Of a stretch of 64,000 bases of DNA, positions 40,930-48,522 are shown piece after piece. The notes under the pieces were generated by a model. That model ran no database searches and was not told the DNA's origin. It worked only from the letters and a program-made list of their open reading frames with translations. Position 1 is the stretch's first letter, and the number at the start of each line of letters is the position of its first letter. The stretch is from Halanaeroarchaeum sulfurireducens. Lineage in GTDB: Archaea > Halobacteriota > Halobacteria > Halobacteriales > Halobacteriaceae. The stretch covers positions 496,001-560,000 of the forward strand of contig NZ_CP008874.1 of NCBI RefSeq assembly GCF_001011115.1, given 5' to 3'. Made by a program: the position numbers and the translations under genes.

Positions 40930-41063
40930 GGGTGTTCGTTCGAGCGGTTGCCACGTAAAGATATGCACGGGAGGGGCAGCCAGACGAAAACGCTTTTATT
41001 ACGACCGTCGAATCTGCTAACGAATGAAGGGGATATCCGGTGCGGGGCGGAGGTATTTTCAGG

Positions 41064-41837
41064 ATGGTTGAGGCCCTGGCGGTCGCCTCGGGCAAGGGAG
41101 GTACGGGAAAGACCACGGCGACACTTGCCCTCGGGATGGCTCTGGCGGACGAGTACGAGGTGACGGTGGTCGACACGGACACCGGCATGGCGAATCTTCT
41201 CTTTCACGCGGGGCTGGCGGACGTGGACGTGACGTTGCACGATCTACTGGTGTCCGACCGGGAGGCGACGCTCGAGGAGGCCACCTACGACCGATTCGGC
41301 ATGCGCATCGTCCCCTGTGGAACGAGCCTCGAGGCCTTCCAGGCGGCCGATCCCGCGCGCCTGCGTGGGGTCATCGCTGACCTCGCTGCCGACGCCGACG
41401 TCCTGTTGTTGGATTCCCCGGCTACTCTCGCCAGCCGCGGGGCGGTGTTGCCGGTCGCGCTGGCCGACCGCATCGTCCTGATCGTCCAGCCGACCATCCC
41501 GGCCATCACGGACGCTCTCAAGGTCCAGGAGTACGCGACGGCGTACGGAACGGGCGTCGCGGGGGTCCTGTTCAACAAGGTCCACGACCCGGCGTCCGTC
41601 GACAGGGTGGTCGACCGGGCGGGCCAGTATTTCGAGGGACCGATCGTCGGAACCGTTCCGATGGATGACGCCGCCCGTGCGGCACGCCGGGCAGGGCGCC
41701 CCCTCCTCGCGCACGCGCCGGACAGCGACGCGGGCGAGGCGTATCAGGCGGCCGCGGCGTCGATCGACGTGGCGGTGGGCGAACCGGGCGCGTTCGCGGA
41801 CCGGTTCCGGAACGCGGTCCTCCCCGACCCACCATGA
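41064..41837 (+). CDS. MinD/ParA-like ATPase
   Basis: The 257-residue P-loop ATPase has the deviant Walker A SGKGGTGKTTATLALG (about 8-23), DTDTGMANLLFHAG (Walker A'/switch I), LLLDSPATLASRGA (switch II) and PTIPAITDALKVQEYA. No clear C-terminal amphipathic membrane helix is seen, which separates it from classical MinD. A GGAGGT Shine-Dalgarno-like sequence at 41049-41054 supports the ATG at 41064. Its stop overlaps the next start by ATGA. The gene faces a TadC/PilC-like and PilB-like pair, and MinD homologues position pili and archaella in haloarchaea, so it may position or power that machine. Confidence 0.85.
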   Translation: MVEALAVASGKGGTGKTTATLALGMALADEYEVTVVDTDTGMANLLFHAGLADVDVTLHDLLVSDREATLEEATYDRFGMRIVPCGTSLEAFQAADPARLRGVIADLAADADVLLLDSPATLASRGAVLPVALADRIVLIVQPTIPAITDALKVQEYATAYGTGVAGVLFNKVHDPASVDRVVDRAGQYFEGPIVGTVPMDDAARAARRAGRPLLAHAPDSDAGEAYQAAAASIDVAVGEPGAFADRFRNAVLPDPP

Positions 41838-42433
41838 CGCTACCGGCGGGACAGCCCACGTTCGACCGCGTGGTAACGCGACTCGGCGAACCGCTCGAGG
41901 CGGCGCTGGACAGGGCGTTGACCGGGTACGCTGAAATTCTCCCACAGGCCGCCCTGTTGCTCGACGCGTCGTCGTCGGGCGTGATGTGGTTCGACGACGG
42001 TGTCCCGACGCACGCCACACATACCGGAACGGGTGCGACGGGGACCGACGTCCTCGCGGAACTCGCGGCGACCGGCCCGTTTCGCGTCCGTCTCGTCTCG
42101 CTTTCGGCCGACAACCTCCACCACGCCAGGCCCGACGAAGCGACACTCCCGCCCGACGCACCGGCAAAACGGCTCGCCGGTGACGAATCGCTGGCCCGGC
42201 GCACCCGCAAGCGAGCGGGGACCGAAAGTGACGGCTCGACGGACGGCGGTCTCGACGCCGTCGAGGCGTTTCTCGAGGACGACGAGAAGATCCGTGCGAT
42301 TCGGGACCGTGCTCGCGCCGAGGCGAAACGGCGGGCCGAGGAGTGGGGGTTCGACGACCTGAACGCCAGTTCAGAGCAAACCGGTTCCAGCGAAAGCGAG
42401 GAACGTGATCAGGACGAGCCCTCCCGAATGTAG
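41834..42433 (+). CDS. Unknown protein translationally coupled to the MinD-like ATPase
   Basis: The 199-residue protein has an alpha/beta N-terminal half (PQAALLLDASSSGVMWFDDG, GPFRVRLVSLSADNLHHA) and a charged helical C-terminal half (about 140-175, VEAFLEDDEKIRAIRDRARAEAKRRAEEWGF). No catalytic motif is evident. It overlaps the MinD-like stop by ATGA, so the two products are probably partners. Its last 63 bases overlap, tail to tail, the end of the TadC/PilC-like gene on the other strand. I do not recognise the family. Confidence 0.75.
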   Translation: MTLPAGQPTFDRVVTRLGEPLEAALDRALTGYAEILPQAALLLDASSSGVMWFDDGVPTHATHTGTGATGTDVLAELAATGPFRVRLVSLSADNLHHARPDEATLPPDAPAKRLAGDESLARRTRKRAGTESDGSTDGGLDAVEAFLEDDEKIRAIRDRARAEAKRRAEEWGFDDLNASSEQTGSSESEERDQDEPSRM

Positions 42434-44215
42434 GAACCCCTCGTAGACGCCCCGGCCGGCGACGCCGGCGAACAAGCCACTCGAAAGCACGGTCGCCTGC
42501 GTCAGGAAATAGAACGTCGGCGTACCGGAGGTCGATCGGGCAACCCCTGCGATGGCGACGGTCTCCCGACCGCCGGGAACGGTGGTTCCCAGGGCGGCGA
42601 CGTTGACCGCGACGACGATCCCGACGACGAGTAGCGACGCCGCCCATCCGACGGCGAGGAAAATAGGCACCTCGTCTCGCACCGCCTGTTCCTCGTGGTA
42701 CAGCCGTCCCGCCTCGCCCTGGAGCGCCTCGAAGGCCGCGGCCGACTGGCTGCCTGCATCGAGGGCTCCGGCGATCATTCCGACGGTCCGTCGGGCCAGT
42801 GGCGTGCCCACGCGGTCGACGAACCGATCGAGGGCCGCCGCTCTGACCGGCCGGTCGTTCGTCGCCACGCGGAGGTCGAACGCCAGATCGGCGACGTCGG
42901 GGTCGAGGGGTCCGAGGCCCCCGTTAGCGGCGACGTGTCCGACGGCCTCGGTGAACGACCGCCCGAGATGAACCTGGTGGGCGACCTCGTGCAGGAATTC
43001 CGGCAGGTATCGGTCCTTCGCGGCGTCGATGCTCGCCCGGTGGCGATCGACGAGGCCGACCGGGATCGCTGCGAGGGCATACCCGAGCGGGCCCGCCGCG
43101 ATGAGGGGCGCACCGTGATGCCAGAATGCAACCACGAAGAGGGACCCGAGCGGCGCGAACACGACGAGCGCGTTCGCGGGATTGCGGTGGACGGTCGCGA
43201 GGAGCCGCCGAAGGCTGTTCGAGGTGCGATACCGGGACCACCGGTATCCCGGCGGTCGCAGCAGGTAGACGAGGCCGCTGGCCACGGTCCCAAGCCCGAG
43301 CACGACGACCGCGCTCGCCGGCGAGAGCAGGACGTGGCCCCGAATCCATCGGGCCAGCTCCATCGCCGGTATCGGCGTCCGTTCTCCGAGACCGGTCGCG
43401 ACACCGAGGGCGACGATGGCCATCGCGGGCACGACCAGCAATCCGACGAACAACCGAACGACGCTGCCGAGATAGCGTTTGGCCGTGTCGGTCCGCTGGG
43501 CGTCCCGTCTCGCGAGGAACCGGCTTTCCTGGTGGAGAAACTCGGCGAGCGCCGCGGGCTCGTCGCGTGCTCGCGAGCGCAGGGTCAACAGGAAGGGTGC
43601 GAGCGTTCGGCGGGACGGGGTGTCCCGTGCCACGACGCGAAGGGCGCCATCGACGGTTCCCGTGACACTCGCGGTCCTGAGAACCCGGCGAACCGTTCGG
43701 GCCGTCTCTCCGAACGCTCGCTCGCGTTCCGCGACCCGGGAGAGGAGCGTTCGCAGGTCCGTCGTCCCGGAGGCGAGCACGTACATGTATCGGACCGTCC
43801 GTGGGAGGGTCCGCTCGATCCGTTCCCGGCGACGGCGTGCCCGACGCGCGAGTGCAGCCCCGGCCGCGCGGATCGTCGCCCGCTTCGCTACTCCCCCGGC
43901 TGTCAGAGCGATCGCGGGGACGAGGGCGCGCTCGACGACAGCCGGCGACACGAGCGGCACCGCCGTCATCCCCATACCGATCGCTTGCACGATGGACCTC
44001 GGGAGTACCGTTCCGACGTGGTATCCGAGCCCCGCCCCGAGGAGAAACGCGACCCACGAGAGGCCGAAGACCCGGGCGACGAACACGGAGAACCGCCGCG
44101 CATCCGGGGTCGCGCGATAGTGCTGGCGCATTTTCGCCAGCCGGGCCGACCCCGTGTGCCGGCCGAACGCGGCGAGAAGCGCGCGGTCGAGCGGCGTCAG
44201 TGGCGGGCCGCTCAT
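42371..44215 (-). CDS. Type II secretion/pilus F-family membrane protein (TadC/PilC-like)
   Basis: The 614-residue protein has paired membrane helices near 50-110, at about 255-310, at 350-400 and at the C-terminus, separated by long cytoplasmic helical domains, the two-GspF layout of archaeal pilus platform proteins. ERTLPRTVRYMYVLASGTTDLRTLLSRVAE and YLPEFLHEVAHQVHLGRSFTEAVGHVA are the matching GspF segments. It would be the inner platform of a type IV pilus-like or secretion machine. Its start overlaps the PilB-like stop by four bases. No pilin gene is visible in the window. Confidence 0.82.
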   Translation of the reverse strand: MSGPPLTPLDRALLAAFGRHTGSARLAKMRQHYRATPDARRFSVFVARVFGLSWVAFLLGAGLGYHVGTVLPRSIVQAIGMGMTAVPLVSPAVVERALVPAIALTAGGVAKRATIRAAGAALARRARRRRERIERTLPRTVRYMYVLASGTTDLRTLLSRVAERERAFGETARTVRRVLRTASVTGTVDGALRVVARDTPSRRTLAPFLLTLRSRARDEPAALAEFLHQESRFLARRDAQRTDTAKRYLGSVVRLFVGLLVVPAMAIVALGVATGLGERTPIPAMELARWIRGHVLLSPASAVVVLGLGTVASGLVYLLRPPGYRWSRYRTSNSLRRLLATVHRNPANALVVFAPLGSLFVVAFWHHGAPLIAAGPLGYALAAIPVGLVDRHRASIDAAKDRYLPEFLHEVAHQVHLGRSFTEAVGHVAANGGLGPLDPDVADLAFDLRVATNDRPVRAAALDRFVDRVGTPLARRTVGMIAGALDAGSQSAAAFEALQGEAGRLYHEEQAVRDEVPIFLAVGWAASLLVVGIVVAVNVAALGTTVPGGRETVAIAGVARSTSGTPTFYFLTQATVLSSGLFAGVAGRGVYEGFLHSGGLVLITFLAFAGTGLL

Positions 44216-46305
44216 TCGGACAGCACCCGGTGGATCCGCTCGACGGTGGCGGCCTCGTCGGTCCGGAGGTCAGCGAGAAACGAGAAGAGCGCGTCGGAAC
44301 CGCCGATGTCGGCCGTCTCCAGGTACTGCACGTACCGAACGCGACGCTGATGGGCCGCACGGAGTTCCGAGGCCGTTCGATCTGTCCTCGCCGCCATGGT
44401 CTCGAAGAGTGGCTCGTACACGGCGTCGCCGCCGTCGGGATCGAGCGTTTTCGCGTGGAGTTCCCCCGTCGTGCCGTCGACGATGGTCCGTCCGTCAGCG
44501 TGGGTGTCCGTCGGCATTTCGACGGCGGTGACGGTGCCGCGCCCGTCGACGATCCGCAGCGTCACCACGAGATCGAGCGACTGGAGGGCGCGGAGGGGAA
44601 CGCCCTTCCCGACTGCCCGGTGAGCGAACCCGGCGAAACCGTCTGCGTTGGCCGAGACGAGGACGCCCTGTCCCGTCGCGAGCGTGTCCGCGAAATGTCG
44701 ATACGTGGGCTCGTCATCGAGATCGGTCATGACCGTCACGTCCGGGTGGAGTTCGGTCGTCCGATCCACGGGCGTCGAACCGGCTCGCTCCCGATCGAGC
44801 GCGTCGGTCGAGAGCGCGACGTGGGTCTCGTGTGGAAGCGTGATCGAATGGGTCCGCTTCGTCACCGTCACCGGCCGATCCGCGAACGGAATGAAAGGGG
44901 CGTGGGCCTCGACCAGCGAGGCCGGACGGGCGCGTTCGGGGCCGACGAAAGCGATGGCCTGGCGGTGTTCGATGGCCAGCCACAGCAATGCAACCAGGTC
45001 GGGATCGACCACGCCAGCGTCGAGGAGGTCGACCGGGGTCGCGGGATCGAGTCCTCGCTTGTCGATCGAGACGTACGCACTGTCCGCACCTGCAGAGGGG
45101 AGAGCAACGGAACACCCGACTGGCCTCCCGGGAGTCGGCTCGTATGATACCGACGCGTGCGGGGTCCGTGGTCCGAGTTCCACGCCCCCCGCGGCCGCGA
45201 GACGCCTGGCGAGCGTCACGAACCGTTTTCCGTCCTCGATCGTCGTGGTGGTGGGGATCCGCCCCGCGTTCTCGAACGCGCCCGGTTTCGGGACGACCTT
45301 CACCCGCTCGCCCACCCGATTCGCCTCGACCCGCTCGATGTGGGGGTCACGGATCGGCACAGTGAGTCTGTCCTCGGCGACCAGGTCCCGGAGCACGGCG
45401 TTGACGAGATCGTCGACCCGGTCGGCGGGGTCGCGGTCCAGCCGTGGTGAATCTCGGAGACCGACGGCCGCGAGCGCGTTCGCGAGCCTGCGCTGTACTC
45501 CGTCGAGCAGTGAGCGTGGGGACCCGACGAGCCGGGTCACAGTCAGCAGCTGGCGCGCCCGATCACGGACGTACGTCTGTCGGTCGGTCACGGGACCGTC
45601 GACGGACTCCTCGACGATTCGGCGCTTCACCGACGAAACGAGTTCGTCGTCGCCTGGCAACCGCGACTGGGAGTGCACGTGATACTTCGTCTCGAAGACG
45701 TCGCCACCGAGGACGTGCTCGCGGTAGACCGTCACCGGTACCTCGGCGCCGAGGACGGAGACCGTGTATCTGGACAGCCGTTCGCTCACGAAACGGTCGA
45801 GATAGGGGATATCGGTGGCCAGTTGCGTCCGTGCCGGGGCGAAGTCGGTCGTGTGAACGACGACGGCGTCGTCGCTCGCGTCCGCGACGCGAACCCGGTC
45901 GTCGAGCGCCAGCGGTGTCAGCGCATCGAGTCCCTCGATCGAGGCGGTGAGGTGATAGTCGAGTCGTCGTCGCTGATCGGGGGTCGTCTCCGTCAATCGG
46001 TCGACGACCCGCCGGTAGGGGCGGGAGAGGCCCGCTGCCATCCGATCGACAGTCCCCTCACGCGTTCGGGGCCGGTCGATCCGGGCACCGTCGAGAAACG
46101 TTTCCACGCGGTTCGCCGCAACTCGCGTCACGACCGCTAGTGGCGGTTCCCGAACGTCGTACTCGAAGCTGTCACCGACCTCTCGGACGGTCGCCACGAG
46201 GTTCGGGTCGACGCGGTACTGGTCCCGCACGGTCGGCGCGTACCACGCCGCCGAAGCGTCCGGGGGAACGGGAGGCGGTACGGTCGCCGGTAACGGATCG
46301 GCCAT
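44212..46305 (-). CDS. PilB/TadA-type secretion ATPase homologue lacking Walker A (probable pseudo-ATPase)
   Basis: The 697-residue protein aligns with archaeal PilB/VirB11-like ATPases across the N-terminal domain (ERVEANRVGERVKVVPKP) and the segment ALLWLAIEHRQAIAFVG. Where the P-loop GGTASGKTT is expected (about 455-463) it reads GPERARPAS, with no lysine. The usual RPE-IIVGEIRG Walker B region reads HPDVTVMTDLDDE, and the HADS box reads NADG. The VPLRALQSLDLVVTLRIV end is kept. The long frame and four-base coupling to the platform gene argue it is a functional but non-hydrolysing subunit. AT-rich promoter sequence lies at about 46306-46345. Confidence 0.78.
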   Translation of the reverse strand: MADPLPATVPPPVPPDASAAWYAPTVRDQYRVDPNLVATVREVGDSFEYDVREPPLAVVTRVAANRVETFLDGARIDRPRTREGTVDRMAAGLSRPYRRVVDRLTETTPDQRRRLDYHLTASIEGLDALTPLALDDRVRVADASDDAVVVHTTDFAPARTQLATDIPYLDRFVSERLSRYTVSVLGAEVPVTVYREHVLGGDVFETKYHVHSQSRLPGDDELVSSVKRRIVEESVDGPVTDRQTYVRDRARQLLTVTRLVGSPRSLLDGVQRRLANALAAVGLRDSPRLDRDPADRVDDLVNAVLRDLVAEDRLTVPIRDPHIERVEANRVGERVKVVPKPGAFENAGRIPTTTTIEDGKRFVTLARRLAAAGGVELGPRTPHASVSYEPTPGRPVGCSVALPSAGADSAYVSIDKRGLDPATPVDLLDAGVVDPDLVALLWLAIEHRQAIAFVGPERARPASLVEAHAPFIPFADRPVTVTKRTHSITLPHETHVALSTDALDRERAGSTPVDRTTELHPDVTVMTDLDDEPTYRHFADTLATGQGVLVSANADGFAGFAHRAVGKGVPLRALQSLDLVVTLRIVDGRGTVTAVEMPTDTHADGRTIVDGTTGELHAKTLDPDGGDAVYEPLFETMAARTDRTASELRAAHQRRVRYVQYLETADIGGSDALFSFLADLRTDEAATVERIHRVLSE

Positions 46306-46660: not shown

Positions 46661-46845
46661 GTTCTGGTGAACATGACGGCGAGCGGAGCGAGTCTTTCGA
46701 AAGTGAGAGCGCAGTCACAGCAACCGGATCGGGGCGTCCGACCGGCTCTCCATCACTCGTTTCCGTTCGGCGCATTGTGACGCCCCCACCAACGTCATTA
46801 ACGATCATTACCTTTATTTGGGTGGGGCCCATTGGAGGAGATACG

Positions 46846-46959
46846 ATGTTGCGCTTTGGGACACCGTTCGACGCGGCTCGCACCGAGACCCAGACCAGTG
46901 ACTCCATGCAGACGGAGCGACGATCCACGAACCCGCGCCGATTCGAGACACGCACATAG
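46846..46959 (+). CDS. Micro-ORF A, copy 2 (37 codons)
   Basis: Starts MLRFGTPFDAARTETQTSDS and ends RRFETRT, TAG stop. A GGAGGAG lies at 46834-46840. Against copy 3 the first 20 codons differ at one residue (E/D) while the last 17 differ at eight, all amino-acid-changing. Frame length is conserved in all three copies. Confidence 0.4.
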   Translation: MLRFGTPFDAARTETQTSDSMQTERRSTNPRRFETRT

Positions 46960-46988
46960 CGACAAACTCACACAATCCCCACACAACC

Positions 46989-47072
46989 ATGATCGAGCGC
47001 ACACACCACGCATCGCTCGCAAACCCAGTCTGGAGCCATCGGTGCGAGCCGGTACACCTGCCGGTACGATAA
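46989..47072 (+). CDS. Micro-ORF B, copy 2 (27 codons)
   Basis: Encodes MIERTHHASLANPVWSHRCE then PVHLPVR and TAA. Only one residue differs from copy 1 and two from copy 3, and most base changes versus copy 1 are silent. No Shine-Dalgarno sequence is visible; it could be read by re-initiation after micro-ORF A, 29 bases upstream. Confidence 0.42.
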   Translation: MIERTHHASLANPVWSHRCEPVHLPVR

Positions 47073-47163
47073 CTCCCAGACCCCCGATACTTTTCTGGAG
47101 TCCATTCAAAACGGTTCCCCCTGGAGCGGTGCCTTTCACCATGTTCCAACCGTTGTCCTGCCG

Positions 47164-47532: not shown

Positions 47533-47577
47533 CGCTTATGAAAATACATATATGCTTTCGTGAACACGCACATACAT

Positions 47578-47922
47578 ATGAGCACTCCCGCGTCGGAAAC
47601 CGGCCCAGAAGACCGGGACGTCAAGGAGGCACGTTTGGAGCATCCGAGCGGCATTCTTTACCTGTTCCAACACGACGCCGTTCCGATCCTTCTCGACGGC
47701 CTCCTCGATCTCCCGCCCGGACGCGAGTTCAATAAGACCGAGTTTGCCGATCACAGCGGAGTGACCAGACAAACCGTCGCGAACTACATCGATCTCCTCC
47801 TGGCTGTGGAGATCGTCGAGAAAGTGCCGAACACGACGCCCCAACGCTACCGACTGGCGGATACCGCCGTCGTCCGCGAACTCTTCGAACTCAACTCGGC
47901 GCTGAACGCGGTGGGTGAGTAG
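47578..47922 (+). CDS. Winged-helix/HTH protein of the divergent cassette
   Basis: From the ATG at 47578 (MSTPASETGPEDRDVKEARL) the protein has 114 residues. A helix-turn-helix is clear at about 48-75 (FNKTEFADHSGVTRQTVANYIDLLLAVEIVE), followed by a wing (KVPNTTPQRYRLADT) and a C-terminal helix. An ATG six codons earlier (47560) is possible, but TATA spacing favours 47578 as leaderless. It probably regulates the divergent 105-aa gene, itself and perhaps the flanking repeat elements. Confidence 0.8.
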   Translation: MSTPASETGPEDRDVKEARLEHPSGILYLFQHDAVPILLDGLLDLPPGREFNKTEFADHSGVTRQTVANYIDLLLAVEIVEKVPNTTPQRYRLADTAVVRELFELNSALNAVGE

Positions 47923-48115
47923 CGATCGCCCGTGAGCCGACATGTCGCTCTGATCCCGGACGTGGTCTCGATGGTGTAGATCCGGTATCCGATTCCAATT
48001 CCCCTTTCGTTTCCGTTTCCAGTCTTGGCTTCCCGTCTCTTCCGATGTGATGCCCCCACCTACGTCATTAACGATCATTACCTTTATTTGGGAGGGGGCC
48101 ATTGGAGGAGATACG

Positions 48116-48229
48116 ATGTTGCGCTTTGGGACACCGTTCGACGCGGCTCGCACCGACACCCAGACCAGTGACTCCATGCCGGCCCGGCGACGATCCAGGA
48201 GCCCGCGCCGATCCGACACACGCATATAG
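48116..48229 (+). CDS. Micro-ORF A, copy 3 (37 codons)
   Basis: Starts MLRFGTPFDAARTDTQTSDS and ends in an arginine/serine-rich tail (MPARRRSRSPRRSDTRI), TAG stop. The tail is more basic than in copies 1 and 2, suggesting nucleic-acid binding if translated. GGAGGAG lies seven bases before the ATG. Confidence 0.4.
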   Translation: MLRFGTPFDAARTDTQTSDSMPARRRSRSPRRSDTRI

Positions 48230-48256
48230 CGACAAACTCACACGATCCACACAACC

Positions 48257-48340
48257 ATGATCGAGCGCACACACCACGCAACGCTTGCAAACCCAGTCTG
48301 GAGCCATCGGTGCGAGCCGGTACGCCTGCCGGTACGATAA
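48257..48340 (+). CDS. Micro-ORF B, copy 3 (27 codons)
   Basis: Encodes MIERTHHATLANPVWSHRCE then PVRLPVR and TAA; residues 9 (T for S) and 23 (R for H) differ from copy 2. The gap to micro-ORF A is 27 bases. Across the three copies most changes in this frame are at third positions. Confidence 0.42.
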   Translation: MIERTHHATLANPVWSHRCEPVRLPVR

Positions 48341-48522
48341 CTTTCAGACCCGTCCGCTCATTTTGTAATCCGACCGTACCCACGTGGTCTCCGTCCGTAC
48401 CCACGCGCCCGCACGCGGCCAGCGCCGTCGCTCGAACGACGTGCCGTATGGCTGGCGGTGAATCGGTGAGTGTCCGAGAAAATCGGGACCGGTGGTGAGG
48501 GTCCGAGAAACGCCGAACCGGG

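Follow-up and report, generated by a model that had tools for sequence, protein, structure and literature searches.

The PilB1-PilC1 pair of Haloferax volcanii supports adhesion (PMC6491452), and its ATPase, PilB1, belongs to clade 4C of the archaeal secretion ATPases (Makarova et al., PMC4858521; PMC6491452). In Halobacterium salinarum, the pil-2 locus (OE1347R-OE1332R) is expressed as a seven-gene transcript comprising pilB, pilC and five more genes, three of the latter coding for prepilins (PMC4292770). Here, we describe a related locus in a 64,000-nucleotide stretch of Halanaeroarchaeum sulfurireducens DNA (NZ_CP008874.1, positions 496,001 to 560,000; referred to as the window), in which a PilB homologue devoid of catalytic motifs is encoded together with a PilC-like partner.

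Many genera of the class encode full-length relatives of the window PilB, with approximately 40-47% identity; a scan of genome contigs with this one protein as query gave distant relatives only. Membership of the PilB1/PilB2-type orthologue group was indicated by ~40-67% identity to the group over ~690 aa and was supported by the tree, whereas paralogues within the same genome gave partial matches at 22-26% identity. A published start-codon primer for Haloferax hvo_0620 (pilB1; PMC6491452) matched the pilB start in genome G076 exactly, identifying the orthologue group as PilB1; a search pattern built on the Haloferax pilC1 3' end gave no match. We assign the window gene as an orthologue of Haloferax PilB1 and, probably, of the PilB2 encoded by the Halobacterium pil-2 locus.

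An initial annotation of this DNA, which did not give the strand, had described an intact 2.1-kb pilB frame with a degenerate P-loop and altered Walker B and His box segments. An uninterrupted frame was indeed present, running from 46305 down to 44212, and the motif changes were confirmed by alignment with orthologues and paralogues. The sequence GPERARPAS aligned with the P-loop, which reads GPTGVGKTT in orthologues and GGTASGKTT or GETASGKTT in paralogues of the same genome. The catalytic motifs expected of a functional T2SSE/GspE-PilB ATPase were lost: the P-loop Lys of the Walker A GK[ST], the acidic box, the Walker B Glu and the H-box His. No alternative P-loop was seen elsewhere in the protein sequence, and the reading of this protein as a pseudo-ATPase stands. 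The window PilB gave no match to Pfam T2SSE (PF00437), compared with scores of 64-77 bits for intact orthologues. The features of the locus are collected in the table.

Table. Features of the pilB-pilC locus and its neighbours (positions are those of the window).
Feature	Position	Strand	Remarks
PilB1/PilB2-type secretion ATPase homologue, catalytically motif-less (putative pseudo-ATPase)	44212..46305	-	697 aa, ATG start
Degenerate Walker A, GPERARPAS, residues 455-463	44917..44943	-	orthologues GPTG[VA]GKTT
Degenerate acidic (Asp) box, VTVTKRTHSITL	44836..44871	-	orthologues ISIDEGSREVRL
Degenerate Walker B, PDVTVMTDLDD	44713..44745	-	orthologues PDVEVIAEINT
Degenerate His box, ATGQGVLVSANAD	44641..44679	-	orthologues NTGHGVIGTTHAE
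PilC/TadC-like platform protein	42371..44215	-	614 aa; Pfam T2SSF 30.9 bits
Convergent overlap of pilC with the 199-aa gene	42371..42433		63 nt
MinD-like ATPase, intact KGGTGKT	41040..41837	+	TIGR01969 179.6 bits, under the curated cut-off of 201.75
199-aa protein, no Pfam match; neighbour	41834..42433	+	probable HVO_0596 orthologue

Upstream of pilB, a direct repeat of ~300 bp (46776-47083 and 48046-48351; 86-92% identity, spacing 1270) flanks two small ORFs, one of which is winged-helix-like (47560-47922). Throughout the PilB1 group (for example, L067 8698-10842), AEINT replaces GEVRG in the Walker B and IDEGSRE replaces IEDTRE in the acidic box, a catalytic set that is unusual among secretion ATPases.

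An AlphaFold model of the window PilB (pLDDT 77, pTM 0.67) adopted the secretion-ATPase (GspE/FlaI) fold, including the RecA-like fold of the archaeal secretion ATPases, and its best structural matches were GspE (2oap; Z 28.1) and FlaI (4ii7; Z 27.8). The model thus predicts that the scaffold has been kept while the catalytic residues have been lost.

A search with the ATPase core detected a PilB orthologue in 193 of 391 genomes and 42 of 86 genera. The state of the P-loop was read in ~60 other orthologues in which the region was present, a subset of these 193 genomes, and GKTT was intact in every one. Among the inspected orthologues, motif loss was restricted to five genomes: two species of the window genus, both of which carry GPERARPAS, and three genomes of a second genus (g2), in which the Walker A position reads GPVDAEPT[AV]. 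The occurrence of four further motif-less genomes across two genera rules out a sequencing error or recent mutation. The two genera formed one side of a branch in the tree (support 100/99.7), although both have long branches that could attract each other. Both genera have small genomes, that of the window genome being 2.21 Mb. The initial annotation had counted homologues with an intact motif against its own reading, as pointing to a recent sequence change. Such homologues exist nearly everywhere else that was inspected, but the motif loss is a lineage-specific one that is not recent and does not appear to mark a pseudogene.

Other alterations of the PilB1 group were also observed. In genus g21 of family f2 (L035, L127 and L138), the P-loop is intact and the H-box His is replaced (TTDAE, TTRAA and TTNAE), making this another genus in which catalytic residues have been lost, here only in part. 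The pilB gene lies in two parts ~8 kb apart in G041 (L086) and is split in G074 (L087). In G067 (L088), pilC and the greater part of pilB have been deleted, and the same deletion cuts short the MinD-like gene.

Selection on pilB was estimated as dN/dS by the approximate NG86 method, the dS of the G000/G116 pair (the window genome and the second species of its genus) being near 1. For the whole gene, dN/dS was 0.22 in this pair and 0.11 in the motif-less pair G001/G007, with bootstrap upper limits of 0.26 or less, compared with 0.10-0.21 in intact pairs. In the ATPase core, which is the tightest or near-tightest part of the gene in intact pairs (0.05-0.09), dN/dS rose to 0.16-0.23 in motif-less pairs. 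N-terminal values in motif-less pairs (0.06-0.23) were not looser than those of intact pairs (0.14-0.21) beyond error. The window PilB likewise kept 79% of the positions conserved in intact orthologues in its N-terminal part versus 46% in its ATPase core. The 18-residue dead P-loop stretch VGPERARPASLVEAHAPF is identical in G000 and G116, whose whole proteins are 67% identical; a run of this length arises somewhere in 12% of shuffles, and alone the identity is suggestive only. These data indicate that the motif-less pilB is under purifying selection, with constraint on the core relaxed yet far below the neutral expectation of 1. A plain pseudogene is disfavoured by these dN/dS values together with the open frames. 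Collectively, the loss common to two genera, the purifying selection and the predicted retention of the fold strengthen the pseudo-ATPase reading, but purifying selection by itself does not reveal the function of PilB.

The pilC gene lies directly downstream of pilB and overlaps it by 4 nt (44212-44215), as in the orthologue group; this overlap and the Pfam T2SSF match bear out the previously proposed coupling of pilB to a TadC/PilC-like gene. PilC retains 112 of the 151 positions conserved in its orthologues (74%). In related genera, five pilin-like genes (DUF7289, DUF7266, DUF7263, DUF7262 and DUF7261) lie between pilC and the 199-aa gene. At the canonical locus L067, pilB-pilC is followed by five overlapping genes that match these families in the same order, the DUF7289 gene also having a weak archaeal Pilin_N match, and the pilin gene that follows pilC1 in Haloferax agrees with this layout. 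In contrast, the end of pilC meets the 199-aa gene directly in the window, G116 and g2, and the pilin-like genes that follow pilC elsewhere in the group are absent from the locus. Pilin searches covered whole genomes for DUF7263, DUF7261 and DUF7289 and the locus for DUF7262 and DUF7266. Genome-wide, DUF7263 was absent from the motif-less G000, G116, G001 and G007 and present in the motif-intact G035, G010 and G018. A strong, locus-type DUF7261 copy was also absent genome-wide from the motif-less genomes, leaving a weak paralogue that occurs in several motif-intact genomes as well. DUF7289 paralogues remain elsewhere in the genome, and other pilins of the genome could have replaced those that were lost.

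The window genome encodes other T2SSE-family proteins with P-loops, including an ArlI-like protein and two PilB types, and at least some of these adjoin their own PilC-like gene and pilins. An apparent archaellum cluster with ArlI/ArlJ-like genes and a MinD was observed at L120 (G000:C1:1290000-1306000); H. sulfurireducens has been described as non-motile (PMC4866403).

The MinD-like and 199-aa genes are probable orthologues of Haloferax MinD2 (HVO_0595) and HVO_0596, respectively. Their convergent order relative to pilB-pilC fits that of the Haloferax MinD2-HVO_0596 pair (PMC11588486), the locus tags of which are 24 numbers from pilB1. MinD-like orthologues with a 199-aa partner occur near pilB in many genomes, the distance being a few kb in G035 and 12-20 kb in two members of the Haloferax-like genus g22. 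By hand count, the 199-aa gene was found in 62 of 64 PilB-carrying genomes and in 9 genomes without PilB; shared ancestry explains much of this co-occurrence. The initial annotation had proposed a survey of whether genomes of this branch keep both genes next to pilB; the 199-aa gene was nearly always present in them, often at a distance. Whether PilB is intact or motif-less, the pair either adjoins it or lies tens of kb away, and it also occurs in genomes that lack this PilB. This indifference to the state of the P-loop argues against the pair having been acquired to power a dead motor, and the earlier nomination of the MinD-like ATPase as a candidate energy source found no support. The pair appears to be an old, conserved neighbour and no more than a candidate member of the system.

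The 199-aa protein gave no Pfam match in 10 orthologues, even at E values up to 10, and no credible match by profile search, Foldseek or VIA-align against the PDB. The cyanobacterial PATAN member PixE has been reported to bind PilB1 (PMC7690835), and the centre of the 199-aa protein resembles PATAN by eye; this assignment is not adopted, as the Pfam, profile and structure searches gave it no support.

The explanation that we favour, with moderate confidence, is that the window PilB is a maintained pseudo-ATPase that acts as a static cytoplasmic partner of PilC and no longer builds the ancestral pilus, a present role that we infer. In the common ancestor of the two genera, the locus would have lost its five pilin-like genes and PilB its nucleotide-binding and hydrolysis residues, with PilB and PilC both retained. 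PilB would still fold and bind PilC, forming a static cytoplasm-membrane complex that would neither hydrolyse ATP nor polymerise the ancestral pilus. Such a complex may persist because it provides a platform, structural or regulatory, or because it serves as an adaptor that acts on the archaellum or on the other type IV pilus machines of the cell. The initial annotation had proposed that either another ATPase drives assembly or the complex is static; the former is weakened by the absence of the cognate pilin genes from the locus, and the latter fits better. A bolder version, which we consider a long shot, is that the former engine has been exapted as a pilus-free PilC and non-catalytic PilB platform for positioning or surface signalling together with the MinD2/HVO_0596-type pair.

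It is also conceivable, if rather unlikely, that the PilB-PilC pair became functionless after pilin loss and is slowly eroding, the open frames being a remnant. Such a relic would fit the repeated decay of the locus among other haloarchaea (a truncation in G067 and splits in G041 and G074), the loss of the H-box His in one f2 genus, an insertion or stop in Halobacterium strains (PMC4292770) and the 2-4 fold relaxation of constraint on the ATPase core. However, whole-gene dN/dS of 0.11-0.22 within the bootstrap limits given above, a value of 0.16 in the g2 core, the open pilB and pilC of both genera and the identical dead P-loop stretch of two species argue against it. Somewhat less credible is a machine driven in trans, in which another PilB or ArlI docks on the window PilC or mixes into hexamers, with the dead PilB as an obligate adaptor and pilins supplied from elsewhere. 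The genome does hold intact ATPases and DUF7289 pilin-like genes, Haloferax PilB3-C3 can substitute for PilB1-C1 in adhesion (PMC6491452), and ATPase-dead PilT in Vibrio still permits PilU-driven retraction (PMC6762196). Yet the locus has lost its cognate pilin genes, at least some of the remaining ATPases are encoded next to a PilC-like gene and pilins of their own, and mixed hexamers are not expected at a local identity of only 22-26%. A role for the adjacent MinD-like ATPase in powering or positioning the complex seems very improbable. The MinD-like gene is immediately adjacent in both motif-less genera, its 199-aa partner accompanies nearly every PilB, and MinD2 influences where the motility machinery is placed in Haloferax cells (PMC11588486). 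However, the pair is equally present with intact PilB, the 199-aa gene also occurs without PilB and is often 10-45 kb away, and deletion of HVO_0596 in Haloferax was without phenotype (PMC11588486). The pair borders pilC in the window because the pilin genes that once stood between them have been lost.

In the open-licence literature searched, we found no account of an archaeal PilB that has become fixed in nature without its motifs and is maintained by selection. That enzyme families can include non-catalytic members is well established; what may be new here is a pseudo-ATPase of the archaeal type IV pilus family that is naturally fixed and maintained within a reduced locus, and an earlier description is possible. 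The retention by selection of a motif-less pilus motor and its partner suggests that a machine has been turned into something other than a pilus builder. Since intact orthologues exist in close relatives, including PilB1 of the genetically tractable Haloferax, the consequences of uncoupling PilB-PilC from ATP and pilins are open to a direct test.

Among known systems, the window pair resembles H. volcanii PilB1-PilC1 (HVO_0620/HVO_0619), with which it forms one orthologous group at ~40-45% identity over the full length and shares the same pilB-pilC overlap. However, PilB1 orthologues keep their Walker A and H box, and pilin genes follow at their loci; the window locus has none of these. The pil-2 locus of H. 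salinarum has the same gene layout as L067, a link drawn from gene order and not from OE sequences, whereas the window locus consists of pilB and pilC without the five pilin-like genes. The predicted fold of the window PilB aligns with GspE (PDB 2oap) and FlaI/ArlI (PDB 4ii7) over 436-456 residues (Z ~28), but both of these proteins bind nucleotide, whereas the window PilB has lost the Lys of the P-loop as well as the Glu and His at the catalytic positions. Finally, the ATPase-dead PilT of Vibrio cholerae that supports PilU provides a precedent for a catalytically dead pilus ATPase as a functional adaptor (PMC6762196). The Vibrio case is mostly that of an engineered mutant within a complete pilus system, whereas the window case is natural, fixed in two genera and accompanied by the loss of the pilins from the locus.
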